From Clavelina lepadiformis (lineage: Eukaryota; Chordata; Ascidiacea; Aplousobranchia; Clavelinidae), in the NCBI RefSeq assembly GCF_947623445.1, contig NC_135240.1, positions 28,582,001-28,646,000 on the forward strand: a stretch of 64,000 bases of DNA. Direction: 5' to 3'. Below the pieces are notes generated by a model. The model was not told the DNA's origin and made no database searches. It saw nothing but the letters and a program-made list of their open reading frames with translations. A program made the translations under genes and the position numbers. Numbering within the stretch: the stretch's first letter is position 1; every line of letters begins with the position of its first letter. Below, piece by piece: positions 13,117 to 61,167 of the stretch.

Positions 13117-15700
13117 ATGTCGGCGAAGAAAAAGACAGTTCAGTTTCACCGAACCAAGACCGGTTTTGAAGAGTTCGACCCAGAAAATTGGTGCGACCTT
13201 ACGTTAGCTGAAGGGTATGACAAGTCAGTGCAGCCTTATAACGAGGACGTTGACATGATCGAACCCGATGGATTAGTTCTTGGGGCCGACTGCTGCGTGG
13301 AAAGCTCCTTTGATACGACAGGCGATGCCGGCGAAGTAGTGTGGAGTAGGTCTTCTGGAGTTACGATAGTCAAGGATGGCAACCAGCAGTCTCGTCAACA
13401 CACAGAGCAACCAGCTGGGGGGGCTGATCCAACAACTACAAATTTGAAACGAAAAAAGAAAAAGAACAAAGGACGGAGGAAAAAGAAACAATTTAGAGGT
13501 AGGTCAGACTACAGAGTATAGGAATAGGCTATGGACATTTTCAGCAAAACCATTTGTGCGACATTCAACCAAAATTGATAAATGACCTCCAGAAAAAAGA
13601 GAAAGGAATGAAAACTGACCAGACTTTCAGAGCCACCTGAAGAAATTACAAGGAAATTGACTTGATTCAATCTGTTTATGACCTAAAAATTGAGGAGAAA
13701 AGGAAAGTTCCCTGCGATCTTTTTCGCCTAAACAAGATCAAAATAGAGGAGTAAAGCGAATTTGCAGTTGCCACTGTTTCACCAAAATATGAATTTCCTC
13801 TGAGCCACGGCCAGGTCAAACCGAGTTTAAGCCGCTTGCCTGTGACTTATATCTTATATCACCACTGTTTAGTGTGCTCATGCCAAACCAAAGTGGAAAA
13901 CGTGGCAGCTGCTATAGCATACTTCCCTATATATGTTTCGGCATTTTTTACAACTTATTTTTTTTTCAGAAATATAAGTTTTTTTTTAAATCATGTTTAA
14001 GTTTTTGCCCTTTTAGTAACTTTATTTTCTCCTTAACATTTTTTTAAGAAAACAGTTTTTTGAGCATATCAGGCGGCGGTTCTTTTTACTAATATCAAGC
14101 TAGTGTAGAAATTTGAGGTTTTACAAACTGTGATGAGACCAAAAGTAGCAAACATTGTTACGTCATCGTGTCATTCAAATGACTCAGTTGTGATGTCATA
14201 ATGCCCAATTAAAATTAATAACTACGAATCAGTATCAAACAAATAATGTCAAATGAGCTCGGCTGATCGCAGTTTATAAACCTGTGCTAATTGCTCTGTC
14301 ATTCTCCATACAGTAAGGTAGAGAAAATGCCACCAACACATATCCGGCTACAACATAGTTTGGGACTGTGCGTGAGGTAATGTTTGAAATTATTAAATAG
14401 TTTTTAATATTTCATTTGAAATAACTAGGCCAAGCTCATCTTAGGTTTCCAGGCACAGCTCGCCACTTTGCTAGATCTTTCCGATGTGGCCCTAGCTGCG
14501 ATTCAAGTCGTCGCTTTTGATGTGAAAATAAAAAAGGAGAAATGTTTCAAGCATGAGACAGAACAACCCGTCTCTTTCCATTTTTCTGCAAATATTCCTT
14601 CATCATTCAGAAATTACTTTTGCTTAAAAAATCCTAGTTGTGAAAATACATGATAAACTCTGCCAGGTGTGCTGCATGTTAAGCTCATACCATGGGCATG
14701 ACCTGGTGCTTCTAGGGTTTGTTTTGCTCATGTTAACCTGCTAATTTTTCCAGGCAGAGCAAGGTTGCAGCTTAGCGTGCTTTTTACCGCATTGATTTTT
14801 TTGGTTTATTCCTGAAATATAAACAAAAACACATTTAAATCAACATCTGCTGACATATCTAACTTACTTGCGGGGGCATTCCCACATTTTTGCGCAATCC
14901 CAGACCTTTCTCTTGTGTAGGTTGGTATTTCTATGGTTGCCAATTATGATAGAAATATCGTCAGTATCAATCATTTTGCTGGTTTTATAATTTTGTGTTT
15001 TTTGTCCAGTTCTATTTTTTTCTTAACATCTTACTGGAGCAATATCTAAGCAGTTGGTAATTTGCTTTCATTACATCATAATCATGCGACATTGTTGTCA
15101 GGTCAGGTTCAAGGTAGGAACTCGACACAGTGGAAGGCAGGAGATGACTGCATGGCGCTCTACGAGGACGATGGACTTTATTATCGAGCAACAATCACCG
15201 AAGTCCACGAAAATGAAGGTCTCGTGCTCGTCAATTACAACGACTACAACGAGGACGACGCAATCGCAATTAAAGATATTTATCCAGCGAGTCTTTGGGA
15301 GAATGCCGGGATCAATGTGACTCAGCCGACATCTTCCGCACGAAGCACAACCGACAACAATTTCCTCAAACCAACGACAAAAGCGAAGAAAACTTTCAAA
15401 GTAGTTGACAACTCCGACCAGAGATCTTCGTCAAATTTTCACTCGTTCCAGAATAACTTGCCTGGGGCTGATTTTATGGCGACCCCTGGTGGTGAGTTTA
15501 CCCCTCCTGCTTTTCCTTTCGCCCCTCCTACCATGCAAAATGGGTTTATCCAATCAAACCTGTTTGAAAATGTTGCGCAATCAAAAGAAGCTCTCTCGAA
15601 GATGCTGACCAGTTGGTACATGGCGGGTTACCACACGGGTTATTACAGGGGATTCACCGCAAGCCCCACAGCATCGAACTTGAAAAACAAACCACCGTGA
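13117..15700 (+). CDS. SMN1: survival motor neuron protein (SMN)
   Basis: Two coding exons: 13117-13498 and 15102-15700 (phase 1 junction AGAG|GT...CAG|GTCAGG), 326 aa. SMN oligomerises, binds Gemin2 and assembles Sm cores on snRNAs. Visible parts: N-terminal Gemin2-binding region (VQFHRTKTG, then WCDLTLAEGYDKSVQPY, like vertebrate WDDTALIKAYDKAV); a Lys/Arg-rich stretch before the intron (KRKKKKNKGRRKKK); a Tudor domain at about 138-185 (WKAGDDCMALYEDDGLYYRA, NYNDYNEDD); a short Pro-rich segment; and a C-terminal YG box (LTSWYMAGYHTGYYRGF). The long poly-proline runs of mammalian SMN are missing. ATG 13117 best fits the family; an in-frame ATG at 13105 adds four residues. The 1.6-kb intron shows nothing coding. 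Confidence 0.95.
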
Positions 15701-29050: not shown

Positions 29051-32000
29051 AAGACATTTAATTCGTGTCGAACATATTATTTATCATAAACCACAAGATA
29101 AGCAATATAGGCCTACCGCCTTAAATAAAGCGTTATTAAAGGAATTCGAACTTGATGAATCTCAAAGGTTAAATCAGTTACTGTTTAATGTCCAATTGGG
29201 TGACCTATGACCTGCCGAACTTTTATTTCAAATGAAAAAGTTAGTTGGAACCTTTTATGATGAAAATCCAGTTGTTAAATCCTGGTTGAAGAAGTTGTTT
29301 CTTGACAAATTGCCATTACTTTGTCGTCAAATTCTTGCTCTTTAGAAGCTGATTGAGGCATCCTTGCTTGTCGTGCAGACAAAATTATGTCGCAATCTGA
29401 TAAAACTCAATCAACACAAGTAAGTATCCAAAATGTCATTTCAAATCTTTCTTCCGTAAACGCTTTCCTCACCAAACGTGTGAAAGAAACCGAACTCGCG
29501 AGGCTGCGAATGCAACGTTACGTTACCAATAATAGGCGAGATGTGACAAATCAACGCTCGTTCACCTGCAGCAACTGGTCGAGTCGACCAGCCCGACGTG
29601 ACCGCTCCTACAGCAATCAATTTCGGCCGACTTTTCTCCTAACAGCCGAGGTGCTGAATATTCAGGCAGAGCTTTCAACAACGAACGACCACGCTTCAGT
29701 CGGCTCAAAGAGCTAGGCGAAATTTTAATACGCCTAACCGCAAATCAAATGCTCCCAATTTATGCTTTTATCATAGCAGATATGGCCGAGATAATTTAAG
29801 ATGTCAATCACCTTGTGGTTGGAGGCGCAATTCATTGACAAAAAACGCCTAAGGCCATCAAAAGTTATCGGCGGCGTAAAATCACCTTCTTTGATGTACA
29901 TATATGATGATAAAACCAAGCTTGATTATATGATTGATACTAGATCGCCTAAATCAGTTATTTTTGCAAAGCATTGCTCCGATTTTACAACAGGAAGTTA
30001 TTACAATTTTCAAGCAATAAATGGCTTTACTATTAAAGTTGTTGGAAAGAGATGCTTAACTATTTCTTTAGGTTTAGAGGATGATTTCACTTGGGAAGTT
30101 TTGGTAGTCGAAAACATTACGTTCAATATAATTGGCTGTGATTTCTTGGCGTCTTAACGTTTTCTTGAAAACTTAGGCTTTAGGCGTTTGACGAAAACCT
30201 CAGGCACAGCCCACTGCGCACCAGACAGTTCTTCTTCACGTAATTTGCCTTTTTCTGCAGATGCTGAACAAGACCAATTAAGCAACGAGTTTGACTTTTC
30301 CCCAGAAATATTCCAAAGTATCCAACGCGCAATACCAGGTGTCACCCATCATATAGTCACAGACCCGAATGCTCCGTAAAGCAGGAAATGTTTCGTTTCT
30401 CGCCTGAAAAGAAACTATTATTCATGAAGAATTAGGCCGAATCTTGGTGTAATTATTTCTAGCTCTAGCCCATACCGTTCTAATATTGTGTTGGTTCAGA
30501 AATCAACCCCAGGGGGTACCAGGTTTTCTATCGACCATCGTTGTTTGAATACGATGACGTCACCAGATACTTAGCCTACTCTGTTCCATTTTTGTCTGAT
30601 TTTGTTAACCACATGGCTGGGAATTGCGTTTGTTCCCGCCTTGATTTGAAAAATGCTTATTGGCTAATTAAAGTAGCTCCAGAAGATATCCCCAAAACTG
30701 CTTTTAGTTTTAAGGGAGCTACTTATTGCTTCCAACGAATGCCATTTGGACTTGGAAATTCTATGGCCACTTTCCAACGAGCAATAGACCACGTGTTACA
30801 AGGTTCATCTAACTGTTTTGTATGTTGTCACGACATCATCATCTTTTTCAGTTCTACCGAAGATCACAAAACCAACCGCACAGCTGTTTTTTACAGGCTT
30901 TTGTAGTTCAACCTTATAGTGAAAAATTGTGCGTTGGGTGCTAATACTTCAACGTTCCTTTGTCACACACTTTCCAAACATGGAGTTCAACCTCTGAAGT
31001 CAAAGGTCAAGGCTATTGTTGATTTCCCCGTCCAAGTAATATGCGTGACCTTCGCAGGTTCTTGGGAATGATTAATTTTTATCGCAAGTTTGTTCCCAAA
31101 TGCTCAACTCTTCTAGCACCACTCAACAAGCTGATCAAACCCAGTCAAAGAGGAAAGAATCCCATCAATTGGACAACAAAAGCCGATGAAGCCTTCGACA
31201 AAGTTAAGAACGTGCTTGCAAATACGGTGACCTTAGATTTTCTTGTCAGGAATGCGACAACACGCCTACGCACTGACGCCTCACTTTATGCAGCAGGCGG
31301 TTTACTGACACGGAACGTTGGCGACACCGAGCGACCACTTGAATTTTTCTTTACGAATTTTAACCAGTGCCAATCGAAGAACAGCACTATTGAGAGGGAA
31401 GCTTTGTCGCTTTCAATGGCTGTACGTCATTTCCGCTACTATTTAGAAGGAAAAGACTTTGTTCTTTTAACTGACCACAAGACCTTAGTGGACATGGCCA
31501 AACGTGACTTGTCCTCAGTATCCCAAAGTTTATATAGATACTTATCATTTGTTTTAGAATTCACGTCGGACTTTCAATACATAGATGGAGATCAGAACCT
31601 AACTGCAAATCTCTTATCGCGTTCGCCCGTGACTGATCCAGCTGAAGATGCCTCTCCTCTTATTTTAGACGAGAAACAGGAAAACCAAATTGAAGAACAC
31701 TATCCAATTGTTGCTGGGAATGCCAAAGATTCTCCAACACTTGATTTTAAGCGAACGGCGGCTGAACAATTTACAGACCCCACACTACAAGATTTGATTG
31801 CAGGCGATACGTCATTACAACTTCGCCAAATACCAATGACTAATCAGACTTATCTATTATTAATATTTATATTATTTCAATCGTATGTGACGTCAGCCAA
31901 GGTCAACTAAGGCCTCTTCTGCCACAGTCATTTCGTCGACAGGTATTCGATAAAATACACGGACTTTCTCATGGTGGTATAAAAGCAACGCAAAAATTAA

Positions 32001-34810
32001 TTTCAAAACGATACGTGTGGCCTCAACTTCTTCTCGATTGTAGAGATTGGGTTCGAAGATGCATAGCTTGTCAACAATCCAAAATACATAGACATGCTAT
32101 AACCCTTTTGCAGAAATTCAAGAAACCGGATGGAAGATTTTCTCATATTCAAGTCGACATCCTTAGCCCTCTAGTGCCCAGTTGTGGTTGCTCGTATGTG
32201 CTAATGATCACCGATAGGTGATGACCGGGTTCATTGTTGCAGCTCCGTTCAGAGAAATCACTGCTAAAGAGGTTGCCAATGCCTTCATCTTACAATGGGT
32301 CTCATGTTTTGGTGTTCCTATGAAAATGACAACTGACTGCGGTTTCCAATTTACTTCTTTGCTTTTTCATGATCTGGCAGCTTCCATGGGAACTCAGCCG
32401 ATTCATACAACAGCCCACCGTCCTATTAGTGACGGCGCCATCGAGCGGAGAATACAAACGTTGAAGAGAGCCCTTAGAGCCCAAATACAAAATGCTGACT
32501 GGATAAGCAACCTTGGCTGGGTTGTACTCAGCTTACACGCAACGATGAAAGCTGATATACAAACTTCCCCTGCCCAATTAACTTTTGGAACCACTATTCG
32601 TCTCCCAGGAGAATTTTTTGAACCACCTGACGAGGATCATCTTTCCCTTTCTAGGTATGTCACTACGCTCAGCAAAGATGGAAAAGATGACAAAACGTAA
32701 ATACGTTCCACCACGTGACCCCTGCCCCATTAAAACGTATGTTCACAGGGATTTTCGCACTTGTCCTTATGATTTTGTACGTCATGCACATAGGAAGCCC
32801 CTTTCACGTTTATATGATGGCCCATTCCTTGTCTTAGATCGAACAGAAAAATATTTCCCTCTGATAATTAAGAACAAACCGAACAATGTTTTCTTGGATC
32901 GTCTAAAGCAAGCTACTTACCAGGCCTAGATTTCGACGATGATATCAACAAGAGGAACAGATGCTCCCTCACTGGCCACAACTTACACCCAAACATTCCA
33001 TTTCAGCTCACTGACTCAGTCAACGCCTCAGAGTCAGACACAGAAGAGGACATTCCCATTAGTGATATTCCTGAAGACATTGACGAGCTACCGGCAGATG
33101 CCTACACTACTAGACGATCACGTGAGAGGTAAAATGAGCAGCCAAAACGGATCGATGTCCTCTTATAGAGTCACTCAAGGTTCATGCGTTTCGGGCACAA
33201 ATGCCTAGATATGGGACTATATAGGTAGCCAAATAAATTGCCAATATGAACGCATAGGGCACGACAACGAGACGCTTTTAATGCATTTCAATAAGAACAA
33301 TGAACTTTTCCGTCTTGAAATTAAGTCACTAGGTGTATCTATCCTCTAGAGTCTAGAGGATGCCATGGCCTCTACCGGTAAAGACATGTCTCCACGGCAC
33401 AGCAACATGCACACCTGGCGGCCTTATACTTGTCCCTTTCAGTTGCAATCGCATCAACACGTTGCAAGTCGCTCGGGATTCTTTAAAAACTGCGTTTCTT
33501 TTACACAGTTTTTCTATATACGCTGCAGAAGCTTATTTGTTGAATGAAGCAACAGATTTCACTAAAGAACCAATTCATCACCTGACGAGTGATATCCATT
33601 ACGTAGAATACGAAATCAAATCATCTCTGGCTGATATTGTTTACGTCATAGGCCATTTGTTCCCTCATGAGGACCTCAGCTATCTGCTTGGACGACCAGC
33701 AGATGCAATAACCTCAGGTGACCTTATGGTGGAATTAGCAACCACTCCAGTTAATGCCAATGTTCTACACGATCTACGATACAAGGGAACCTATTCTGTT
33801 TGACCCCTCGTAGCCTTTAGCATCAACTACACTTCGTATATCGGACAAGTTTGAATATGTACACAAAAGTATGCGTTTGGTCGAAAATTACATCCCTGAA
33901 AAATAGTTACTTTTGTTGTTGGTGGAAATGTCCATCACGTGTGTCACCGTTACACCCTGACCAGACGTCACAATGACCCTCACTCCATTGCTCCGTCTTT
34001 GGTGAATGTAGAAGCTCCAATGCCCCCCCTTGAATTCTCTTCCTCATCAACTTGTTTCCTGGCAACATTGATGGACATGATGATCTCAGTGGAATCCTGG
34101 AAGCAGTCCGTCAACCTCGCCTCATACGGGATAAGCTTTACACTTTTCTTGGCGGCACACCCCAAGCCAATACCCAAGCCGATTTATCCTATATTCAGAA
34201 TACTGTCTCTACTACCTTTAAAAAAAACATTTCTACAGATGATCTCTAATATTACCTCCCCAGTCATCAGTGGTATTTTATCGATCTTATGTATTTTATC
34301 ACTTGCTTGGACCATTAGGCTATTTGGCTATTCTGATTTTTCAAAATTCTTATCCTTTTTTTGGTGAAATTGACAAGTACTCAGATCTGTCGCCTTAACC
34401 CAGTGTTTCTCAAACTTTTTGCGATCGCGTACCACTCATTCGTTTTTTTTGCTACACTGCGTACCACCTGGCTCCTGAATGACTTATTTTACTCAAATGT
34501 ACCGGTATTTATTAGTTATTACCGTTATTACTATACCATAACACCAATGAATAGCAAGAAAACACAATTTAATTTGATAGATGCAACTGTTTCTTCTGCA
34601 CAAGCTTGTCTATCCGGGGCAACACATTATTCACAGCACATCGAAAATCATGTTCAGCGGTACGCGGTACCACTTAAAAAGCTCTCGCGTACCGCTAGTG
34701 GTACGCGTACCACAGTTTGAGAACCACTGCCTTAAACGAACTCCCCAACTTAATTCTGATCTTATTGCTGGAGCAAACCCTCTAGTTCAGGAGAATGCTG
34801 ATAATTAAAA
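29050..34810 (+). mobile_element. Ty3/gypsy LTR-retroelement fossil with envelope-like region
   Basis: Parts in order: gag-like region (about 29.1-29.75 kb), aspartic-protease region (about 29.8-30.2 kb), reverse transcriptase (about 30.5-30.95 kb), RNase H (about 31.0-31.65 kb), zinc-binding and core integrase (about 31.9-32.7 kb) with a tail to about 32.93 kb, and an envelope-like region with a hydrophobic C-terminal stretch (about 33.2-34.4 kb). The pol order RT-RNase H-integrase places it in Ty3/gypsy. It is broken in many places (roughly ten or more). No LTR pair could be matched by eye, so both ends are approximate. It is probably old, and a hAT MITE has since inserted near its 3' end. 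Confidence 0.8.
34401..34729. mobile_element. hAT-type MITE inserted in the gypsy fossil
   Basis: 329 bp. Ends are CAGTGTTTCTCAAACT and, inverted, CAGTGGTTCTCAAACT. Flanking 8-mers CCTTAACC (34393-34400) and CCTTAAAC (34730-34737) match at 7 of 8. The interior has GGTACGCG/CGTACC palindromic words and no transposase. Confidence 0.85.
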
Positions 34811-46675: not shown

Positions 46676-47210
46676 TACAATCGAATATGCGTAATAATTG
46701 AATTGCGTTTGTAAACTTAACAGAAGAGATAATGACGCAATAACCATTTGAGATTAGACTAGGTAAAAGTCTGTTTTGCGCTCATCACAGTATTGCTGTT
46801 GGACAGTGGTTTATTGCCAGAAAAGTTTTTGTCATTTGCAGAAATTTTGGAAATGTTTGCATGTTGTGGTCTACGAGCATTGTTCATAAATGCGTAAGTC
46901 GTGTTTAGGTCCAGGTTGGCAGTGAAACTAAAAGTATACCTTTCGAAAATCAGTTCAACCTCAGAATTAGTTAGATTCATAGACTTTTGACAGGCCTAGG
47001 AAAGTTTAGTCTATTTACTCTAGTATAGTCTACATAGAGTAAAGGTTACAGAAGATATAAGAAGTAATTTCGTAGTTGAGATAATGTTAGGCATGGGAAT
47101 AAGTTCCGGTGTTACTGTGGGCAAAATGCAAATGATCTTTCCAATCTATATTTTGTTGCAGATAAGTTTTTTCAAACTTGGCTCTTTTTATTTTATCTGT
47201 CTACAGTGCG

Positions 47211-50200
47211 ATGGATGTGGAGAATGACGAAATCGCAAGCGTAAACTCCCAACCAATCGCACAGCAGCCGGCGTGTGTAGTAGCCTGTGACGTGTTAGCG
47301 TGTGACGTGGTAGCCTCACAAGATGTACCGTCGTGCTCTCAGGGTTCAGAGATTGCTGATGTGCAGCTGCTGGGAAAGCAAAGCGATAAAGACGTAGAAA
47401 GCGATAGGACGACTATAGTGGACGACAACCACGATGATGGTGACATTGAAAATTTCGAGAAGACCTCACCCGAAGAGAAGGTCGTGATCGCCAGCACAAC
47501 ATCTTTAAACAAAAAGCGAAGGTACAGTTTGGGAGCAGAGCCTAGCGCTCTTGGTGGCGAGTCTCCCTTCGCGAAACGGGCACGAAAGCAAAGTTTTGGA
47601 GGCAAGCACGGGACTGGAAAAAAGCGAAAAGACGCCCTGACCGACGACACAGAAATTCAGAAAATTCTGAAAACTCTCGGTCCGATTTACAGAAGGCGAA
47701 TATTCATAGAACAGCTGAAATCGCGATGGTACGTCATCGCGGGCCCGGGACTGGTGCTGCTCACACTTTTCGTTGTTATTTTTGCCGTGGTGTTTCCGAT
47801 GCTGTCAAAAGTAGTTGAAGTATTTCGACCGCCGCCAGCGATCGAAGCGAAGTTCTCACTGATTAGCATGGAAGGTAAGACAGTCATGCTTATAGCCAAC
47901 AACCTATTGTTCTAGCGCTATGAGTCAATTTAGAACCGGATATAAATTATATTTCGTAGGCATAGATTTGATGAAAGTTGGAGAGGACTGGCCGTCTAAG
48001 AGAGCACACGATTGGTCGGATAATTATCTGATACCTAACTTGACCATAATTTACCAAAAGGCGTCATTCCCTGTGAAAAATATCACAATCGTCGAATTAA
48101 AATTGCATGAAAGTCGAAATCAGGTAGAATTAACATAAATTGGTTCAATGGAATTTGACGAAAGGAAGCTTAATAATAAGTTTCAATCATCACTGATGCG
48201 CCACAGATCTTTTACACTGCCGCCAGTCTTGTTGAAGTAATCACACAAACTCATCAATAGAATTGACGAGCGGGAGAGTTTTCTAAACCTTTTTGCTTAA
48301 AAACAGCGAATAACGGACGTTTTTTACTCGGTCTCTAGCATAATGCTTTCGGAAAATACTTGAGAAATTTGATTTATATTTTATCCTGCTGTTGCCCGCT
48401 GAAATTTACGCAGGAAAATTTGAAATTTTTATACTCTTACATTCCAATGCAAGTGTCATGCAAACATAAACGTAATTTTCTTGTATGATGTCACTATTCC
48501 AATTGTACGTGTCATAATGACCTTATATTTGCAACATATTTTTGGCGATAAACACAAACATTGTTACGAAAAGTTCTTTCATAAATTCTTTATTAGTTTT
48601 TTATTGTATTATTATGTCCTCGACTTATGAACGAGTCTCGTTCCGAACGATCGTTCGTATGCTGAATTGTCCGTAAGTTGAATACGAAAGTTGAATACGA
48701 AATATACAACCATAGGTTCGTAGTTTTACTAGAACGTTCCAGAAGCTGCGTGTGCTACAAACCGAGTTAAAAACAATGGCCTTTGTCATTTGCAGCTTTC
48801 TACCCTCAAACTAAAGCGAGATAATAGCAAACCTGTTCGAACACGGCGGGCGCGGAGTGAAAAGATCTATGTGTGTTACATTTATGTGCGTGGGTGACAT
48901 ATGACATGTGACGATTGCTTGCAGATCACGAAAAGGTCAATTTCCCTGGAAGCTCCGTTGATCATCGAGTACGTCGTCTATCCGAGTGAAGATAAGGCCG
49001 ACCACGACGCAACTGAACCAACTTTGAAGGTGATCGTGGGAAACGTCCGCAAGCTGCTCATCAAGGAAAGTTCTTGGAAGGTCGACCCGAACACGATCGT
49101 TTTAAAGCAGGGTGCCGAGGAAGTCCGGGCTTCTTCAGCAAGAAGCTTTCTCGCCTCTGAAATACCTCCAGTGGAACTTTACATGGAAGTCGACGTCACT
49201 TTTCGACGGAGAAAATCTCCCGTGACAGATTGTACGAAGATGGACCTACCGGAAGGGGGCGATGTTGAGCCCTACGAATGCAAGTTGAAGCAGATATTTG
49301 AGCCGGGGACAATCTGCTCATTCTCATGCGAAGATGCCTACGTCATGGTGGGAAATCGAGAGCGGATTTGTTTATCCAGCGGGGTCTGGAGCGGAGTTGA
49401 CGTTGACTGCATAAAACTCTGTCCCACTCTTACCCCTTTACATAATGGGTTCATCACGCCATATAGCTGCATCGCCACAAACGCCACCGTCGCACCGGCC
49501 ACCAGGTGCATCCACGGCTGCAAAGAATACTTCCGCCTCGTCGGCTCGATGCAGCGAGTGTGCCAAGATGATGGGTTATGGAGTTCGTCGGCGCCGGTTT
49601 GTAAGCGAAAGTGCCCGCCACTACAAGCGCCACAAAATGGTGGCATGAAGCCAGGACAGTGCGAAGAAATGGTGGAAGGTGACGCATGTACTTTCTCCTG
49701 TGATCAGTCGTTTGTTCTGCAAGGAGAAACTTCGGCGAGCTGCGACAGTGACGGGAGGTAAGTCTCTAAGCTCATAGACATCAAATATAATCAAAGGAAT
49801 ATTTTTGATCACGGTGATGCTTTATACCTGGACTTATCTGTTTTTTGCAGGTGGACCGAGGACGTACCAGTTTGCAGAAAACAGTGCAAGACCCTTGAAC
49901 CTGTGACGTATTCGGACGTACACCCTCCAGTATGTGCGCATTCATCGCTGTACGAAGGTATGACGTGTGCCTACACCTGCCACGGCGGGTATCAACTGGT
50001 TGGCAGCAGTTCACGAAACTGCGATTCTTCTGGAAATTGGTCAAATAGTGCGCCCACTTGCGTGAAGACCTGCGAAGTGCTACTTGAGCCACAAAATGGC
50101 GTCATTACACCAATTTCCTGCACAGTTACGTCATCACTAGGTGGGGCGAAATGCAGTTTCTCGTGCGATGCTGGATACACACTGAGAGGTTCAGAAAACC

Positions 50201-53200
50201 TGACCTGTCTTTACAACGGCGGCTGGGACAGAGATACGCCGGAGTGTGTTGCTCAGTGCCCGGGGATGGCGGCCCCTGAAAACGGCGATCTGCTGTGTTC
50301 TGGTACCACAGCCGAGTCGACGTGCGCGTTATATTGTTTGTCTGACCACCGCCTTGTCGGCGCCAGCTACGTCATATGTCAGTTAGATGGGAGCTGGTCG
50401 GAGCCTCTGGGTAATTGCGTCATCACCTGTTCGAAGCTTTCAGCTCCAGACCACGGTGGTATTGCTCCAGATGAATGCAGACTCATCGAGAGCACCATTG
50501 GACAAAGCTGCTCGTTTTGGTGCCATTTGTCCTACGGGTTCGCAGGGTCTAGAGTCCGCTCTTGTCTGGAAAACGGATCTTGGTCGGGTGTCGCCACCAC
50601 TTGCGAGTTGGAAGAGCAATACATGGTCGTTCTTGACTTGGGGCAATTAAAAGTTTGTTTAAGCAGCGAAGATGAGAAACTAAATGCACCAATCAAACGA
50701 AACTTTGATGACTGTGAAAATGAAGAAAGAAATCTTTGGTCCATTGCAGATGAAAAACTTTTGAAGCATTCTCGGAATGGTTTGTGCATCGGTTTCGAGC
50801 AAACAACCTATTTATCCAGACTCGTATTTCTTGAGTGTGATGAATTGGATCCCATGCAAATATGGGCCTGGCCTATGGTGGCCGGAGAGCAATATACAAT
50901 CAAATTACGTGACTTTCCACTCTACATCTGGTATGGATATAGCACCTCTCCGTATCTCCTGGCTACTGATGAACCTCTCACGTTGACTAAGTGGCTGCTG
51001 TATCGTCACGCATCGCTTTCCTTTTCTAGCTTTTACGGAGCAATGAACGACGGCAGGTGTCCCAGCTTGCCAATCCTGGCGAATGGAAGGTGGGCGCCAA
51101 ACACTTGTGGACTCGGCGACACCGCGTCAGGCACACGCTGCTCATTTCTATGTACACCCGGGTACGAAACAGAATCGGGGAAATCGACCGCGTTATGCTC
51201 CAATGGCCTCTGGGAAGGAGAAGAATCCCCGCGGTGCGTCCGGTCTTGTGTCGCTTTCAACGCGTACTCGATGCGAAACGGCACAATCTCACCTTCTTAT
51301 TGTACTTCGAGTCCATACGTGAGCAGGGGCACGATCTGCACCTTCAGGTGCGAGGATGGCCACGAACTTGTGGGTGAAAAGAACGCAGCTTGCTTGTTAA
51401 ACGGCCAGTGGAGCTCAGACGTGCCAGAGTGTCATCGTAGATGTTCGCCCGTAACTGTGCCCGCTCGTGGGAGTGTTTCTTCCACAACAACTTGTCCCAA
51501 CACCGACAGCTTACACGAGGTCGGCAATGTTTGTAAACTCGCCTGCGACGATGGCTACGTGGTTCAGGGTTCAGAGTACAGAGTATGTCAAGCCAATGGT
51601 ACTTGGAACGACTCATCTTCAACCTGCATAAGAGCTTGTTCGTCCCCACAGACACCGAATAATGGAGCATACAGCTGTAATGGCGAAAACTCAAAATATC
51701 CAGTTGGAACAACCTGTACTTATACATGCGAGGGAACGCGCTCTCTTTGGCCTTCGTCGGGTGACGTCATCACTTGCTTGTCATCGGGGGTTTGGAACGC
51801 TTCAAGCCCGACCTGTCAAAACTTCTGCGAACCTCTCGCTCCTATTTTAAATGGAACCATTGAACCATCTGCTTGTCTGAATCTAACAAATGAGTCTCTG
51901 CCTAACCAGCAGGTTTGTTACTTTGAGTGTGACCACGACTTCGCATTGAGTGCATCGGGAACCGTCATTTGTCTTGAAGACGGATCTTGGAGCAATTCAC
52001 TGCCATCGTGTCAGGAGGAGAAACATTTCATGATTCAACAAAATTCGAGCAGCGGAAGATTCTGTCTCGCGGTGGAGCATCATCCACATCATAACCAGTA
52101 TGAGGTGGTGCTGCTACCAACCAGCCAGTGCAATTCCTCCGACAGAATGCACTCGTGGTCTCGCACTTCAGCCGATCAGATACGACACGTGGACACAGGT
52201 TGGTGCCTCGCTGTGTCGGGGCCAACGGAATTCGAAGTTCTATATTTACGCGATTGCGACTCAAGCAATCTAAACCAGCGATGGAAATGTCAGTTAGAGG
52301 ATGAAAAACTTGTCGTGAAACTCAGTGCGACTGAATACATGATTTATGGCGGTGTGGGGCCTTCAGCAAGCCTGAGATTGAAAAGCAATGCAAACAACAA
52401 CGAATACACGTCGTGGATTGCGAACGATACCGCAGGAAACGATGGATCCGTTTGTGGGATGACGTCGGAAGGAAACGGGAGATGTCCGAAGTTGATCTTC
52501 CGTGAAGGTGCAACAGTTTCTCCAGCTCTATGCAGGGAAGAGGTTGAAATTGGTGATAGCTGCACGGTCACGTGCCTTCAGGGCTACGAGTTTTTCTCTG
52601 GCGCAACATCAAAGGTCTTGGAGTGCTTAGAGCACGGAAAATGGAGCATCATGGACGTTTTATGCAGTAAACGCAAATGCAATGCTTTAACTTTGCCCAC
52701 TAATGCAGCCGTAAGCGACCCTGATTGCCAAAATTCAAACCAGACAGCGTGGTCGTCGGCCTCCTGTGAGGTCACTTGCAATGCCGGAGTGTACCAGTTG
52801 ATTGAGCCTGGAAACACTGGAACGCTGCGCTGTCTTGGAAACGGAGTTTGGAGTGAAGCAATGCCACAATGTTTGGACTATTGCTCGGCATTTACAGCCC
52901 CGGCAGATGGCGCCATACAACCGTCAGCTCGATGTACCGCCGCTGAAAGCTCAAAACATGGCGACGTCTGTCGATTCTCATGTTCCGCCTTGCATTCTTT
53001 GTCCGGCTCCGAGTACTTAAAGTGCCAAAACGGGACCTGGAATACGACCGCACCAACATGCTCGCTTATCACTGGCTCAAATACATGCACGGCGCCTTCC
53101 GCTCCTAACTATGGTCGGGTTGTCCCCATCTCTTGTTCATTCAATGGAGCTTCAGAAAATGAAACCTGCAGCATTGAATGTGTGCTGGGATTTGCCGTTG

Positions 53201-56200
53201 TCCCTTTGCGAGATGTCATTTCAGTCTGTAGAGCGGATGGAACCTGGAGCTCGCCCTTTCCCACTTGTAAGAAGCTTTGCCCAAATATAGATGCACCAGC
53301 GTATAGTTCGGTCCAACCAGAGCGATGCAGAAGTGGCGACAACATTCCTGGGGACGAGTGCTTGGTGGTTTGTGATAAGTTATACGCGCTAGATGACGCT
53401 GCTGTGCTAACCTGCGAGGACAATGGGCAGTGGGATCGAGTTGCTCCTCAATGCATTCGTCGGTCGCAGTTTCTCATCGCAAACGACACTTTCTGTGCTT
53501 CGGCGACAAATGAAACTGACCAGCGCATCATCACCAAAGATTGCGAGTTTGACGACAACTACCAGCGCTGGGAGTGGGTGGACAACCGCAAGATACGAAA
53601 TGTTGCCAAACAAAAATGTTTGGTTCCTGAAACCGAAACTTCTTACGCTCCTCTCATTCTCCTTGCTTGTCAGGATGTGGAAGAAGCGTGGGAATGCCCC
53701 TTTAACGAGAATCTGCCTCAAGAAATCGTCTTCAAAGATCTCTTGATGGCGCACTCCTATGGAGACATTGAACACTTATTTGTGGTGAATGAAAATGAAG
53801 AAGAGGAGAGCTGGAAAACAAAACGCGGGACGCAGTTTTCGTTTCTGGATCAAGTTTTTTCAGGAAGCGCGTGCTTGTTTCGGACCACTCGAAACTGCCC
53901 GTCCTTGCCTGAGGCGCACGGCGGTTACACTGATGCCGGCTGCAGTTCTCCCAATAGTGACGTCACAACAGGTAGAGTGTGTCGTTACTTCTGTAATAAT
54001 GGATATAAGCTAAGTGGACAGCCGGCGAGATTGTGCTCGGACGATGGCACTTGGAACGACACTTCCGTGTCTACTTGCAAAAAGTTATGCCCAGCGCTGG
54101 AATTACCTGATTTTGCTTCTGTGACGCCATCAGCATGCTCTACAGGCAGCATGGAAGAAGGTGACTCTTGTGGATTTCAGTGCACGTCGGGGTTGTCCAT
54201 GGCTGGTTCACGTGACCGAGTGTGTCGTGCAGAAGGGACTTGGTCCGGGGTCGACGTCATCTGTCATCGTACGTGTCCGCCGCTTAGTCTGGGAGATAAA
54301 CTCGTAGTTTCTCCAACGAGCTGCTCTTCGCTCAACAACACGATGGGCACAATATGCACCTCGTCTTGCTCCAACGGCTTCAAGCTCAGTGGCACGTCGG
54401 TGCGTTCTTGCACAAATGATGGTTCGTGGAGTGGCAGCTCTACGCAATGCCACAGGTCCTGTCCTGCTTTGCGTTCCATCACAAATGGCAGAGTACTTCC
54501 CGCAGATTGCCTCGGGAATAGCAAGAAAGAAGGGGACGCCTGCGTTTTTTCTTGCACAACTGTTTTCGGAATAGATGGAGGTCACATTCGCTCGTGCACG
54601 ACCGACGGCGTTTGGACTGGACAATATCCAAAGTGCCTGAGAACTTGTCAGAACTTGAGAGCGCCCACTAACGGGTTGGTTACTTGTGATCGCGCCACAC
54701 ACTTGGCTGGCGATATCTGCACCTATTCCTGCATCCCTGACTACGTCATCGACGGGCCATCAGCGCGACGAACGTGTCAAGAAACGGGGCAGTGGTCAGA
54801 CAGTGCGCCGGTGTGTGTCCGCGAGCACCAATTCATTCTCTTTCAGAATTCTCCACCGGACAGTTTGTTGTGTCTTCACGCCGTCGACAATCAATCAGTG
54901 ACGATGGAAAGTGAGGACGACTGCCATTTTGACAACGCATCGAGTCGATGGGCCTGGTATCACAAGAGAATGTTTCGGAGCGTCCTGCATGGAACCTGCC
55001 TTGCTGGAAACATCCTTTCGGTAGGAAGTTATCTTGTCTTGGATGATTGTGACGACACTGACCCTAGTCAAAGATGGGATTGTCCTGACGAAGAACGCGC
55101 GTGGTTTGTTCGCCTTTCAACATCCAAAATGTACCCTTTGTTCTCTCACCTCTCAACATACAAGGTTTTGCTGTTTGATGACGACCAGCTTGATTTTGTT
55201 CAGAAGGGAGACGCGAGTATATCGAGTCACACCCAGTGGTATGTCAAGACAGCTCTCTCTGACCGCGTGCCAGTCTGCTCAGCCAAGGAAGTTGATTCAT
55301 GCCCCGGCCTTAAATTGTCCGACAAGTTGATTTTAAGTCCACAAGCCTGCTCAGACTATTCAGTTAAAGTCGGTACCGAGTGTTATTTACATTGCGAGAT
55401 GGGCTATGCGTTAAGTAGGTCAATAGGAACAACTTCTTGCTTAAGATCCGGTCACTGGTCCCACGAGGTGCCTGAATGTGTTCCAGCATGCCGGGCTTTC
55501 ACCATCCCGCAAGCCAGCACACTACAGGCAAGTCCAACATCGTGTACAACCACCTACCAGCATTCGGAGGGTTTCGCTTGTAAATTCTCGTGCCCTTCTC
55601 CCTCAGTGCTTGTCGGCAACGCGGTGTTGACGTGCATGGCGAATAGCAACTGGAATTTTGACCAACCGACGTGCAGAGCAACATGCGCGGCAGTCAACAC
55701 ACTCGCCCACGGGATGATCTCGCCACAGTCGTGCTACGAAGCGGGCTCGAGAGTGCTTGAGGGCACCAGGTGTGTGTACACCTGCCTTCAAAGCGAGCAC
55801 GTCCTGAGCGGCATTAGCGAGCGCTTGTGCACACACACCGGTCAGTGGAGCGAACGGGAGCCGAAGTGCGTGAAACCTTGTCTTCCACATCTACCAGTTA
55901 CAGGAGGAGATGTGCTTCCAGCATCGTGTCTAGAGGAGTCTTCTCTCGCCGACACTGTCTGTGCATTTTCCTGTGACAATGATTTAGTTCGGATAGGATC
56001 GCAATATCGCGTTTGTCAAGCAAATGGCACCTGGTCAGGATCAAAGTCGTTTTGCCAGGCTGGCTGTCCGACAATTCCGCGTGTCTCGAATGGGTCGTTG
56101 AAGCCAGGAACTTGCGAGAAGAGAGCGACCACTCCTGGCCACACTTGCTCACTGACGTGCAGCCCCGGCTTCCATGTTCGCGGAGAGAAAGTCGTCGTTT

Positions 56201-59200
56201 GCCGCGAAAACGGAACTTGGAACGTAAAACTGGGCCAGTGCATACCCATGTGCACGAAGCTGAACAAACCATTGAACGGTCAAGTGCAGCCTCCTTCGTG
56301 TTTGGGCGGAGATCTTTACGAGGGAAGCGAATGCACCTTCTCTTGCGAGCCGAGCTTTATTCTTCAAGGTTCTGACGTCAGACTTTGCCAGAATAACGGC
56401 AAGTGGAGCGGGAAAGAAGCGAGTTGCCGGCTTGCCTGTCCCGCTTTAGGTCTAACTCTAAATGTTTTGTATAATCCACCAGGGTGCGCCAACGATCCTC
56501 AAATTCCGTTTGTCACGTGTGTGACGTATTGCCCTAATGGCATGGCAACTAGAGAAGGTGTGACGAGTATCGTGAGCAAATGCAACGAGAATGGCACTTG
56601 GAGTGAAGCTCCTTTGAGTGAATGCCACCGGAGATGTTATACGCCAGTTATTGAGAATGGCGTCGTGGATTGCTGGACGTCAAGGGGCGATGTAACGTAT
56701 GCTTACGTCACAGGGACGGTCTGCCGTGTAGTTTGCGAAAAAGATCATATTCTGACGTCGGCTGCGCGGTCAGTATGCGAGGCGGACTTGGAGAAACCAA
56801 ACTCTGGTGTGTGGTCCCCGCCGTTGAGTCAGTGCGCTTATGAACCGGATCCAATGATTATATTCAACAGAGTTCGATCGAAATCAGTTTGTTTTGGCGT
56901 GGAAGACTTCAAAGTGATATCGGTTGATTGGAATCAATGCCAAAACGATTCATTCATGACAGGTTGGGTATGGCGAGACAACAACTCCATTAGAAATACC
57001 AAAAACGGCCTCTGTCTTTCGGTTTCTGAGGCGAAACTAAACGTTTATGTAACTACTTCGACGTGCAATGATTCGAACCCCCTGCAGTATTGGACGTGCC
57101 GCGGAGATACTTCTTACGCCCTCACTCTGTCTGGGACCAGCCTGGCTATGACGGTGTCCGCAGCCAGCCTGGGTGGGGTGATCCTGTCAAACGACATGAG
57201 TGTGAGAAACATGATCTACACCTACAACCCAAACTCCGACTCAGGGGTCGGCACCGTCTGTTCCAGGAAAGAAACTGGGACGTGCTCGACCCCATTTCTG
57301 CCGGTTTACGCGCGAGTTGAAGGGGGTGAGTGTGGATTTTCCGGCGCCACCGAAGGGACAGTTTGCCCGGTCATATGCCAGGGCAATAGAATCTACTTCA
57401 CTGAAATTCGATGTTTGTCCAATGGTCTGTGGACGCCCAGCGCGAGTGAGGTCTGCCAAATCAATTGCGACAGGCACCCCGCGCTAACAGGCGGCGCATT
57501 TTTTCTTCAACCGCAATGCAGCGAAGATAGTGTTCCCCCTTTCACCGCTTGCAGCGTTGGTTGTCCAGCTGGATATGTACTGAGCGGAAAACAAACGAAA
57601 ACGGAATGTTTAAGAAATGGGAGTTGGGCCCCGTTGAAGTACGCTTGTGTGAAGTCATGCCCAAAGATTTCATCAGTCGACAACGGCGTGCTAGTTCCAA
57701 GCGTGTGTGTGACAGGGCAATGTATGCTTCGCTGCAACCCCGGATACCGTTTGCACGATTCTGCATCAAGTTTGTGCCTGCCAACAGGGCAGTGGTCAGG
57801 CAAGGAATTTTCCTGTGTCATGGAGGTTCAATTTGTCATTTCAAGTGAGAAGAAATTTAACAACATAGAGTTGTGTCTGGAGGTGGACGAGTCAGAGGCC
57901 GTCTATAAACAGCCGTGCACTTCAGACAAACTTACTCAGCTCTGGCGCTGGTCGTCGCACTACACTTTAGAAAGCGTATTCAATGGACAATGTCTGTCCG
58001 TAAGAAACATCACTTCGGGGAGTAGTTTGTCGGCCACGGTTGCCAGCTCACAATCATCAAACACTGCGCAAGATGGAAGCAACAGTGAGTTTATTGACAA
58101 CAGAAACGGGCCCGGTAACATAATCACTTCAAGTTGTGACCAAACCGACTCCAACCAACGATGGAGTTGCGGCTCCCATCCTGAACATTCTTTTCTTAAA
58201 CTTCTCGAATCTTCGGTGTATTTAGACGCAGACCCGATATTTCGCAGTCAGCTTCATACAAAGTCAGACGGACACTTCGGTTCGCTCAACTGGGACGCCA
58301 GGCGCTATTCGGGTCGGAGAAAAGTTTGCGCGTTCCGTGCAACCGGAGTTTGCCCGCCAGTGCAAGATATCTACGGAGGTTCTGTTTCACCGGCGGTTTG
58401 CAAGACCGGTTTCGTCGTTTTAGGGACCCATTGTCGCTTTTCATGCTCTGATGACTTCACTCTGGAGGGTGAGGATGTGATTATATGCAACAGCAACGGC
58501 AAGTGGTCGAATTTGCCGCCATTTTGTGTTGGGCTGGAACAATGCCCGGAACTCGATCCCGTCAAGCACCTGAGCATCGGGCCGGCATCGTGTGTTGAAG
58601 GTTTGGTGCCTGAGGGCTACAGCTGTCGATTCCTGTGCAGGGACAACACGGTGCTCATCGGCACAACGAGTCTTCTGTGTGGTTCTAGAGGCGAGTGGAA
58701 CGGCAGCTTGCCTGAGTGCAGAGTCACCTGCCCCGCTTTATTTCCTCCCGCAAACGGCCACGTCTCGCCAGCTCAATGCGAGCAGGACAACGTTGAGATT
58801 GCGATAGTTTGCAGTTTTTCTTGCGACCCGGGACATACGATGGTCGGAGGCATGAATCGGACTTGTACGGACGATGGATCTTGGTCGGAAGAACAAGTTT
58901 TTTGCAAACGTTACTGTCCTATCTTAGTAGCGCCAACTAACGGCCTGATTACCCCCACGTCATGCCTGACCAACGACAGCGCTCACGGTACGACTTGTGA
59001 CGTCAGTTGCGACTTCGGTTTCGCCTTGAAAGGTCCGAGAAAGTTGCGATGTAGCGAGGGCAACTGGACGTTGGTGGAAGCAGTTTGTGCGCCAGATATG
59101 TGCGCTAAGTTGGTCGCATTGCCACAAAGCATCGACGCAATTGAATACCGAGACACGCAGAACGGAGCAATAGTTCCCAACACTGTAGCTTTTGTCACCT

Positions 59201-61167
59201 GCAGACCAGGATATGACGTAATTGGGCCACAAGCGAGAGTCTGTCTTCAAGATGGAACTTGGTCTGGAGGCAACGACACTTGCGAGGTTACAAAATGTCC
59301 ATTTGTCAGACGCTTGTACCGTGGCAGTGTTAACCCGAGCAACTGCACAGAGAATGTCGGGGTTGCGCCAGGAGTGCATTGCTACTTTGCCTGCGATGAA
59401 GGGTACAAGCTGTCCGGGCCCACATCCGTCGAATGCCAGCCTGGTGGGTCTTGGTCTGATGTGAGCCCGAGGCAGTGCGAGGACACGTACTCCAAGCCCT
59501 ATCTCGTAACCTTTGTGATGATCTTAAGAGAAACCGGAGCAGTTGGATCAATTTCCACGTCTTGTCTGGAAGCAAGAAAGAACATGAAATCGCTCACCTC
59601 CTCGAAATGTAAGCAGGGCGACCCCTACCTAATATGGAGGTGGTTCGGCAGCTACCGCATTCAGAATGTCGGCAATCAACTGTGCTTGAAAGTGAATGAA
59701 GATTACAGCCTGGTCACTGACACTTGCCTGCTCAATGATACGTCACAATATGTGTTTTGTGGCGACATAAATTCACCAGCAAGTAGGTTAAGGTTGAAGA
59801 TCGGGAAATTATATGTCGGAAGAAGTTCCGTCCACGAAAAGTCGACAGGTGTCAAAGACTTGGCGTGGAGTGCATCCATGGTGGGTTATTCCCATTCTAG
59901 ATTGCTGGCAAGTCCCGAAACCATCGTTGAATCGAGCCAGCAACCGATCTGTAGCGCCATGTGTGGTGGGAACATAACATCAGGGGATGGTCATCTCTCC
60001 TCGCCGAGCTTTCCCAATTTCTACCCGAGCAATGTTCACTGCGTTTGGAGAATTTCGACCGATGTCCCCAACAGTCAGTTAGAGATTGACTTTTCGGACT
60101 TGTCTTTGAGAAGTGGGACCGATGAGGTTATGGTGGAGGGCAAGAGGACGTGTCAGGGAGATTACCTTGCTGTCTACGGAGGCACGTCCAGCCAATCAGA
60201 TCTCCTTAAACTATTGTGTCGATCTACGTCATCATTCAGGACAAAATCACTGCACGGGTCGATCCGCGTCGAATTCTACTCAGGTCATGAAAGAAATGAC
60301 GCCGGGACCGGGTTTTCTGCTCGCTGGGTTTCGAACAAATGGTCAGAAGCCCAGACCCAGTGCGGGGTACACCCTGGAGATCTCCCGATTTCATCCAATG
60401 ATGGAAAAGCACCAAGTCGGGCTCCATGGCAGATAGCGATCACCTACAGGAGCCAGCACGTGTGCAACGGTGCCCTGATAACGAAGCTGTTTGTCGTGAG
60501 TGCGGCTAATTGCGTTGGCAAGTTCTTGACTTTTGGCGAAAGCTCGGTCATTATGGCGGTCAACTTCTCCAGTCAAATGGATTTGATCGAAAAGAAGCAA
60601 AACGGGAAATTTCACCAAGTTCGGAAGATCTGGGTTCACAGCGAATATGACGACACGACTTTAGAAAACGACGTCGCCATAGTGATGTCACAGAACGAAT
60701 TCGAACTTGACGTGATTGTACAACCGATCTGTCTGCCAAAAGCGAGCGTGGGAAGAATCCAACTTCCGGGTTCAGCGAATTGTTGGGCTGTGCAGTGGTC
60801 ACGTGATATGTTCTACCAGGTGGCAGCAGAGTGGGAGTTTACGCACTACAACAAGATGGAAGTTCTAGAAGAGGCGGAGTGCCGAAGAAGGACCCGCGCG
60901 AGCAGAGAGTGGGGGGAGCGGACCACATGCGCGGTGAGGTTGAACGACGATAGAATCGCAGCAAGCAACACAAAGTCAGTCGACGCCGACCAAGACTCGA
61001 TCCTGCAGTGTCGGTGGAACGGGAACTGGTATCTCGTCGGAATGCAATCGTTTGTTTTCTATGACGTCATAGAAACCTTTGTCTACACCAGTATTGTTGA
61101 TTACGACGCATGGATTCACGAACAGATTATAAACGCTTTTTACAATCTCCGAAGTGAAGCGTCATAG
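47211..61167 (+). CDS. giant type II membrane CCP/ricin/CUB/pseudoprotease protein
   Basis: Four exons: 47211-47874, 47960-48123, 48925-49757 and 49851-61167 (GT/AG, all in frame; 12,978 nt, 4,325 aa). Order: Lys/Arg-rich cytoplasmic tail (1-172), one membrane span (about 173-198), stem (to about 378), sushi/CCP modules from residue 379 (about 39 counted by four-Cys plus Trp pattern such as CxxSC...CxxNGxWS), seven ricin-B-like segments separating CCP blocks of about 7, 5, 5, 5, 8, 3 and 6, then CUB (3925-4046) and a trypsin-like domain (4058-4320) lacking catalytic residues. No upstream signal peptide is seen, so the span acts as signal-anchor with the C-terminus outside. The layout echoes type II transmembrane serine proteases. 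Surface recognition or adhesion is inferred. ATG 47211 directly follows a good acceptor (TCTGTCTACAG), which could be a trans-splice or 5' UTR intron site. I recognise no orthologue. Confidence 0.85.
47727..47804 (+). other. membrane span of the giant protein
   Basis: Encodes WYVIAGPGLVLLTLFVVIFA and onward, preceded by RRRIFIEQLKSR, so positive charges flank the cytoplasmic side as expected for a type II signal-anchor. The cytoplasmic tail also carries two Arg-Arg/Lys-x-Ser sites (RRYS, Ser106; RKQS, Ser128). Confidence 0.8.
50611..51057 (+). other. ricin-B-like segment 1 of the giant protein
   Basis: Between CCP modules 7 and 8. Pattern: KVCLSSEDE, CENEERNLWSI, RNGLCIGFEQ, FLECDELDPMQIWAW. 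The paired C-x-D/W strands resemble half of a ricin-type beta-trefoil (the QxW motif reads QIW). Confidence 0.65.
52015..52482 (+). other. ricin-B-like segment 2
   Basis: Between CCPs 12 and 13. Has RFCLAVEHH, HSWSR, RHVDTGWCLAVSG, LRDCDSSNLNQRWKC (a canonical QRW strand). Confidence 0.7.
53458..53894 (+). other. ricin-B-like segment 3
   Basis: Between CCPs 17 and 18. Has DTFCASATN, CEFDDNYQRWEW, KIRNVAKQKCLVPE, LLACQDVEEAWEC. Confidence 0.7.
54820..55299 (+). other. ricin-B-like segment 4
   Basis: Between CCPs 22 and 23. Has LLCLHAVDN, CHFDNASSRWAW, RSVLHGTCLAGN, LDDCDDTDPSQRWDC. Confidence 0.7.
56839..57282 (+). other. ricin-B-like segment 5
   Basis: Between CCPs 30 and 31. Has SVCFGVEDF, TGWVWRDNNSIRNTKNGLCL, TSTCNDSNPLQYWTC. 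Confidence 0.7.
57820..58350 (+). other. ricin-B-like segment 6
   Basis: Between CCPs 33 and 34. Has IELCLEVDE, LTQLWRWSS, ESVFNGQCLSVRN, SSCDQTDSNQRWSC. It contains an extra Ser/Asn-rich loop compared with the other copies. Confidence 0.7.
59482..59950 (+). other. ricin-B-like segment 7
   Basis: Between CCP 39 and the CUB domain. Has STSCLEARKN, YLIWRWFGSYRIQNVGNQLC, TDTCLLNDTSQYVFC; the last QxW strand has lost its Trp. Confidence 0.65.
59962..60327 (+). other. CUB domain of the giant protein
   Basis: CGGNITSGDGHLSSPSFPNF then YPSNVHCVWRI, DYLAVYGG, LCRSTSS, VEFYSGHERNDAGTGFSARW: the standard CUB pattern with four cysteines in place and the acidic D-YLAVY calcium-site type residues. Confidence 0.9.
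60361..61155 (+). other. trypsin-like pseudoprotease domain of the giant protein
   Basis: Begins CGVHPGDLP, APWQIAITYRSQHVCNGALI. The His box is VVSAANC (Asn4107 in place of His), the Asp box LENDVAIV is kept (Asp4161), and the Ser box reads QDSILQC, two residues short and without Gly-Asp-Ser-Gly-Gly. No IVGG activation cleavage site. Fold-level landmarks PICLP, CWAV, WNGNWYLVGMQSF and a final helix DYDAWIHEQI remain. Confidence 0.88.

Follow-up and report, generated by a model that had tools for sequence, protein, structure and literature searches.

What is the origin of an ascidian gene whose single product joins a membrane anchor, dozens of CCP modules, ricin-type lectin segments, a CUB domain and a trypsin-like end, and what might such a giant do? 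The locus lies in a window of 64,000 nucleotides (the whole stretch of DNA that was analysed) from Clavelina lepadiformis, contig NC_135240.1 of assembly GCF_947623445.1, positions 28,582,001 to 28,646,000 of the forward strand. This window is part of contig C1 (28.8 Mb) of the genome searched, which comprises 209 Mb in 95 contigs; the published assembly is given as 210.1 Mb, mostly in 9 chromosomal pseudomolecules (PMC10884593). The reading favoured here, with a probability of roughly 0.6, is that the protein is an ascidian giant adhesion receptor, derived from a protease and no longer catalytic. Its predicted architecture and family assignment are held with high confidence; the function proposed for it is far more tentative.

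Gene model and module layout

Four exons separated by GT/AG introns form one open frame of 4,325 amino acids, in agreement with an earlier note on this DNA that had proposed four in-frame exons and ~4,325 residues. Alternative splice choices likewise keep the frame open. The chosen set is preferred because it alone agrees in length with the database model P0004, an 'unnamed protein product [Clavelina lepadiformis]' that derives from another contig than the window. P0004 is equal in length to the window product, with substitutions at 38 of the 4,325 positions and no insertion or deletion. The uninterrupted frame of 3,801 codons is not due to chance, as the next longest among the open reading frames listed reach only 594 and 401 amino acids. 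Exon 1 has a single match in its own genome, and a candidate poly(A) signal, AATAAA, was seen by eye ~130 bases 3' of the stop codon. The features are as follows (window coordinates).

47211-47874, +, exon 1 (spliced model)
47211..47735, +, cytoplasmic tail, residues 1-175 (exon 1)
47736..47804, +, predicted signal-anchor/transmembrane segment, residues 176-198 (Kyte-Doolittle)
47805..49230, +, stem, residues 199-378, across exons 1-3, containing introns 1 (phase 1) and 2 (phase 0)
47960-48123, +, exon 2, 164 nt (spliced model)
48925-49757, +, exon 3 (spliced model)
49231..50604, +, CCP 1-7 (profile)
49758-49850, +, intron 3, phase 2, within CCP3, immediately 5' of a conserved Trp
49851..61167, +, exon 4, 11,317 bp, intronless, from the remainder of CCP3 to the stop codon
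50605..51057, +, ricin-type segment R1, between CCP blocks
51058..52011, +, CCP 8-12 (profile)
52012..52482, +, ricin-type segment R2, between CCP blocks
52483..53454, +, CCP 13-17 (profile)
53455..53895, +, ricin-type segment R3, between CCP blocks
53896..54816, +, CCP 18-22 (profile)
54817..55299, +, ricin-type segment R4, between CCP blocks
55300..56835, +, CCP 23-30 (profile)
56836..57282, +, ricin-type segment R5, between CCP blocks; also folded
57283..57816, +, CCP 31-33 (profile)
57817..58350, +, ricin-type segment R6, between CCP blocks
58351..59469, +, CCP 34-39 (profile)
59470..59958, +, ricin-type segment R7, after the last CCP block
59959..60327, +, CUB domain (Pfam CUB, E 7.3e-14; cubilin and neuropilin CUBs in the PDB)
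60352..61119, +, trypsin-like pseudoprotease (Pfam Trypsin, E 5.4e-18, 66 bits; TMPRSS2 alignment)
60508-60510, +, Asn replacing His57 (TMPRSS2 alignment)
60991-60993, +, Gln replacing Ser195 (TMPRSS2 alignment)

Elsewhere in the window, a survival-motor-neuron-like piece (SMN Tudor plus YG-box) is found at 15050-15697, + strand. Retrotransposon RNase H-like and integrase domains, the latter below cut-off, occupy 31023-32700, + strand, ~15 kb upstream of the gene.

The membrane anchor

The product contains one strong hydrophobic segment. Its 19-residue Kyte-Doolittle maximum is 2.84 at residues 180-198, against 1.73 for the best value elsewhere, consistent with the N-terminal signal-anchor of a type II membrane protein that had been claimed. 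The 15-residue flanks carry nearly equal charges, +1 before and 0 after; the orientation with the N end inside is therefore assigned because the downstream modules are extracellular in nature. A single N-terminal signal-anchor with a cytoplasmic N end is the predicted topology. Pfam gives no meaningful match in exon 1 or in the stem part of exon 3 (48925-49230), and a SEA domain, considered for the stem, found no Pfam match there. Two basic stretches of the tail noticed by eye, KKRRYS and KRARKQS (window ~47500-47640), resemble basophilic kinase sites or a nuclear signal.

CCP and ricin-type modules

A profile iterated on the window protein and its relative P0008 (see below) identifies exactly 39 CCPs, where ~39 had been counted by inspection, in blocks of 7-5-5-5-8-3-6; the weakest has an E value of 3.9e-6. 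Pfam searches of P0004 return 36 Sushi stretches (E 8.7e-207), seven Ricin_B_lectin matches (3e-38), six CysR_MRC2_N, one CUB (8.4e-14) and one Trypsin (8.1e-18). On the spliced product, Sushi, Ricin_B_lectin, CysR_MRC2_N, RicinB_lectin_2, CUB and Trypsin each score above cut-off; the CUB and trypsin-like end lies in the same predicted product as the membrane exon, as had been supposed.

The seven ricin-like segments noted earlier are likewise borne out, both by the Ricin_B_lectin count in P0004 and by the ricin-type character of all seven segments that separate or follow the CCP blocks. They measure 147-178 amino acids each and have Cys and Trp positions common to all. When a profile of these trefoils is compared with the PDB, the best match over most of its length is the CysR domain of the mannose receptor (E 6.6e-13); plant lectin B chains score equally over shorter stretches. 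A fold predicted for R5 from the seven segments has a mean pLDDT of 60, residues 1-90 of 149 being better than the remainder. Searched with this weak model, Foldseek again ranks the CysR domain of the mannose receptor first (E 2.3e-4, but TM only 0.44). These matches identify the segments as predicted trefoils of the mannose-receptor-CysR/ricin type.

The protease-like end

The top PDB match of the trypsin-like end is TMPRSS2. Relative to this enzyme, Asp102 is kept, His57 has become Asn, Ser195 has become Gln, and IVGG reads ISSN; the triad His57-Asp102-Ser195 is thus not intact (Asn, Asp, Gln). An activation site of the R/K-IVGG type is absent from both the window protein (PISSND) and P0008 (PVTIND). 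As judged from its residues, the domain has no usable catalytic triad and is predicted to be catalytically dead, and the term pseudoprotease used in the earlier note is apt. A deletion of GGP in the active-site loop was considered and rejected, as the ungapped TMPRSS2 alignment contains substitutions only. The predicted fold of the domain (pLDDT 33) is too poor to use.

A collinear relative and an intron-rich paralogue

The homologue search with the whole protein yielded 28 proteins among 3,117 candidates. Ricin, CUB, Sushi and Trypsin are listed together for only two of the 28. One is the window protein; the other is P0008, an unnamed ENA entry 3,770 amino acids long. P0008 is collinear with the window protein from residue 587 to the C end (1,410 identities in 3,808 positions, 37%), with CCP blocks 4-5-5-5-8-3-6, a CUB and a Trypsin domain. 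At its protease end His57 and Asp102 are kept, Glu stands for Ser195 and the activation site is missing. Among the 35 of 39 CCPs that could be compared (P0008 lacks the first ones, and pieces with no more than 40 aligned residues were left out), the best match lies on the diagonal in 29, and the diagonal pairing of ricin segments ranks 1 of 5,040 orders. P0008 probably represents one long exon, since its N end is missing and its sequence begins 33 residues into the region of exon 4. Searches with C-terminal parts returned the protein itself with three cubilin-type proteins (4 of 1,953 candidates), or itself alone (1 of 9). P0008 was listed in neither, so the small number of further relatives found says little.

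The genome itself contains an intron-rich paralogue on C7, a separate chromosome-scale contig. Family searches for ricin (13 matches) and for CUB/trypsin (21 matches) have the region C7:19.39-19.43 Mb in common. Here a gene of 29 kb on one strand (C7:19394147-19423473, L028-L031; start codon at L028:2660) has the same module order: seven CCPs, R1, five, R2, four and a half, R3, five, R4, eight, R5, three, R6, six, R7, CUB and trypsin, located with profiles made from the window protein and P0008. The draft model has at least 55 short exons, mostly one or two per CCP; it consists of 54 pieces, one of which merges two matches in different frames, plus four 5' exons placed by eye, and the CUB and trypsin exons are not joined in it. 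Its junctions are in phase at 52 of 53 sites, a figure that is not independent evidence because path-finding rewards matching phases. By profile 38 of the 39 CCPs are present, a row at 13696-13737 (E 0.37) being excluded from the count; CCP16 was recognized by eye, and only as its second half. All seven ricin sites are found, R7 weakly (E 0.014), and a second CUB piece has an E value of 0.099. Among seven translated pieces searched in Pfam, three exceed cut-off for the expected family (two Trypsin, one CUB), three match that family below cut-off with E values of at most 0.012 (two ricin, one Trypsin), and nothing is matched by the seventh.

All the protease motifs looked for are present in the C7 gene (RLVGG, TAAHC, NDIAL and GDSGG), and from these motifs, in an incompletely assembled domain, its protein looks like an active protease. 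The 5' exon of this gene codes for a tail that is short and basic and for a hydrophobic segment with a Kyte-Doolittle value of 2.04. Acceptor-like hexamers precede both start codons: CTACAG at window 47201-47206, four bases 5', and TTACAG at L028 2652-2657, two bases 5'. They may mark an intron in the 5' UTR or a site of trans-splicing.

Module by module, the resemblance to the C7 gene is low. The CCPs of the window protein (15 compared) are 33.3% identical to those of C7 and the CCPs of P0008 31.8%, against 31.3 +/- 4.7% for 210 mismatched window-C7 pairs, and the best match lies on the diagonal for only 6 of 38 CCPs (window) and 4 of 34 (P0008). The tblastn chain of 23 pieces (29.5% identity) is in order and locally at least one CCP out of register, as repeats of about equal likeness would lead one to expect. 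An order-specific similarity is nevertheless significant, though faint. The diagonal sum for window and C7 CCPs is 441, against -1 +/- 92 in shuffles (p 5e-5, 38 of 39 CCPs, the first four residues of C7 CCP1 being taken in the wrong frame), and the mean score is 73 at offset 0 versus 56-65 at offsets 1-4. For P0008 the diagonal also exceeds shuffled orders (p 4e-4, n 34). With incomplete pieces for R3, R4 and R7, the ricin order against C7 ranks 24 of 5,040 for the window protein and 2 of 5,040 for P0008. The window gene and the C7 gene seem to be sister genes in one genome.

Intron history

Introns 1 and 2 agree in phase between the two genes, and exon 2 measures 164 nt in the window gene versus 167 nt in C7. 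The CCP3 intron is also shared, in place and in phase (phase 2); in both genes it splits an Arg codon before the conserved Trp. The window gene has none of the C7 introns 3' of this position and also lacks four 5' of it, and the modules of its exon 4 correspond to about 50 exon-like pieces on C7. Relative to the intron-rich C7 gene the window gene has lost introns, the C7 state being presumably the parental one. A simple replacement of the 3' end does not describe the case, because the four introns upstream of the CCP3 intron are missing as well.

We suppose that an ancestral intron-rich gene for a type II protease was duplicated by way of a partly spliced RNA, or underwent mass intron loss; that the duplicated copy would have retained introns 1, 2 and the CCP3 intron; and that the window copy then may have lost catalysis while keeping every module. 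The location of the paralogue on another contig fits retro-copying and mass intron loss alike. A reverse-transcriptase model is one of three for intron loss in the literature (PMC3652778). No poly(A) tract or target-site duplication is expected, because the copy is old, its dead-protease state being shared with P0008. The window gene is probably an ancient, semi-processed copy of the gene for an active giant type II protease, and the protein that it encodes is probably dead as an enzyme.

Other accounts of these data differ in how much they leave unexplained. That the giant is artefactual, more than one gene or misassembled repeats having been fused in one frame, has a single point in its favour, namely that the gene is known here from genomic sequence alone; this account is already contradicted by the uninterrupted exon from CCP3 to the trypsin end, the indel-free copy from another contig, the collinear P0008 and the split-exon C7 paralogue with identical module order. 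Independent construction of the CCP and ricin arrays from a shorter common protease would suit the low module identity and the few diagonal best matches, but both genes have blocks of 7-5-5-5-8-3-6 (one C7 CCP by its second half only), CCPs and trefoils alike have significant order-specific similarity, and intron positions are shared, which makes it very improbable. More weight, while still unlikely, is given to many separate intron losses after ordinary DNA duplication, with no retro-copied RNA. Three introns remain, one of them inside the CCP array, and the four that precede the CCP3 intron in C7 are gone, neither of which a clean retro-copy would show; against this, ~50 losses would be needed, and not one intron of the exon-4 part has been kept.

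Comparison with described proteins

The closest described protein is HrTTSP-1, of which Harada and Sawada 2007 is reportedly the original study; the comparison is with a review description only. According to this review, HrTTSP-1 from sperm of Halocynthia roretzi is a type II protein of 337 kDa. It has a membrane segment at its N-terminal end and a serine protease domain at its C-terminal end, together with '23 EGF-like' and two ricin-B domains, and binds the egg-coat protein HrVC70, as confirmed by pulldown (PMC9265791). So described, the two share very large size, ascidian origin, type II topology with an N-terminal membrane segment, a long repeat array, ricin-B modules and a C-terminal serine protease or protease-like domain. 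They differ in that the window protein has 39 CCPs, seven ricin-type segments, one CUB and a dead protease, and Pfam finds no EGF family match in P0004, in contrast to the EGF-like array of the description. No protein named HrTTSP-1 occurs among the homologue-search matches. The same review text describes HrOvochymase, an ascidian follicle-cell polyprotease in which one serine protease domain is without the typical catalytic triad (PMC9265791). An atypical triad, CUB modules and, for HrOvochymase, a reproductive setting recall the window protein, whereas HrOvochymase has a signal peptide and several protease and CUB domains, and its description there includes no CCP/ricin array.

Type II transmembrane serine proteases such as TMPRSS2 and enteropeptidase likewise combine an N-terminal anchor, stem modules and a C-terminal S1 domain; the window copy differs from them in lacking His57, Ser195 and the activation site. 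Some of these proteases have a CUB in the stem, and in the human members the stem is several times shorter. With the mannose receptor family (1dqg; CysR_MRC2_N) the protein shares ricin-type trefoils of the same subtype, seven of them set between CCP blocks, but by Pfam neither C-type lectin nor FN2 modules. SVEP1/polydom and CSMD proteins, which fill much of the homologue list, have similarly long CCP arrays; their entries list VWA, pentraxin, EGF or CUB, and none lists ricin and trypsin together. Neither the alternating CUB-CCP layout of CSMD nor the VWA-EGF-pentraxin-CCP layout of SVEP1 is found in the window protein, in which Pfam identifies one CUB and no VWA, EGF or pentraxin.

The earlier description of a derived type II transmembrane serine protease with an enlarged CCP/lectin stem is supported. 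The implication that nothing comparable had been described is not supported, in view of HrTTSP-1 as reviewed. No CCP/ricin/CUB giant of this kind was recognized in the literature searched, a body of work that mostly excludes subscription papers. What appears new is that the gene belongs to a family: its own genome holds a sister gene, intron-rich and apparently active, and the databases hold a collinear relative. The finding offers a sequence, an architecture and a genomic partner for ascidian giant surface proteases, otherwise found only as the reviewed description of HrTTSP-1, and, with active and dead copies in one genome, a test case for evolution from enzyme to receptor. The layout of ~45 modules has been conserved in order at 37% identity.

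Possible function

The protein may be a receptor in glycan binding, fertilization or immunity, as suggested in the earlier note. The favoured model is a non-catalytic adhesion receptor on a long CCP rod. At ~4 nm per CCP, a rod of 39 CCPs and seven trefoils could place the CUB/pseudoprotease head over 100 nm away from the membrane. Trefoils of the mannose receptor type bind sulphated sugars, and those of the window protein might make repeated, individually weak contacts with glycans, perhaps sulphated ones, in an extracellular coat. Protease folds that have lost catalysis can act as binding domains, and the dead cleft may be a protein-binding site here. The likeliest setting would be the attachment of sperm to the vitelline coat, where the C7 protein would be the catalytic partner; the sperm side is favoured because the review gives HrTTSP-1 as a sperm partner of the egg-coat receptor HrVC70. 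Gamete adhesion, proposed by analogy, is put forward tentatively. If true, it would make the sperm side of egg-coat recognition testable in Aplousobranchia.

Nearly as likely as sperm-side adhesion, and like it short of an even chance, is an immune role, as a receptor on blood cells or epithelium that recognizes patterns or regulates complement; its CCPs and trefoils would bind microbial glycans or complement fragments and its protease end would be a relic. Complement proteins typically contain CCP arrays and CUB/trypsin modules, and the trefoil profile matches lectins. The only similar ascidian protein found in the literature searched is, as reviewed, a sperm protein, however, and the module order kept between P0008 and the window protein from CCP4 onward is unexpected for a fast-evolving immune receptor. 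There is no support for a function as a polymorphic self-marker, because the one allele pair compared, P0004 and the window product, shows no clustered variation: the 38 changes reach at most 4 per 100 amino acids (p 0.80). The adhesion reading can be extended to a fuller scenario that we consider rather improbable, in which a partly spliced RNA from a transmembrane protease with ~40 CCPs re-entered the genome long ago as DNA and has lasted as an intact gene with ~13 kb of coding sequence, its dead head became a recognition tip, and the C7 and window proteins form a catalytic/non-catalytic pair at the sperm surface that serves egg-coat recognition.

Other loci

A possible third relative lies on the minus strand at C5:5886088-5895360 (L032-L033), where 14 CCP matches come after a CysR/ricin exon; within C5:5880001-5906000 neither CUB nor trypsin was matched. 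Ricin matches at C4:8.566M and C1:10.53M were set aside, as they look to us like GalNAc-transferase pieces. A match at C8:19164739 was rejected as a paralogue. It belongs to a single-frame ORF of 1,802 amino acids (C8:19164691-19170096; L036:2691-8096) with a ricin-type segment near its start, eight FN2 and five kringle stretches and a weak TSP1, and forms a second intron-poor multi-domain stretch in the Clavelina genome. On the same contig, at 18.63-18.91 Mb, several Sushi exons occur in equal-score pairs about 79.4-79.5 kb apart, a spacing which suggests that a large stretch with a cluster of CCP genes was recently duplicated in tandem.
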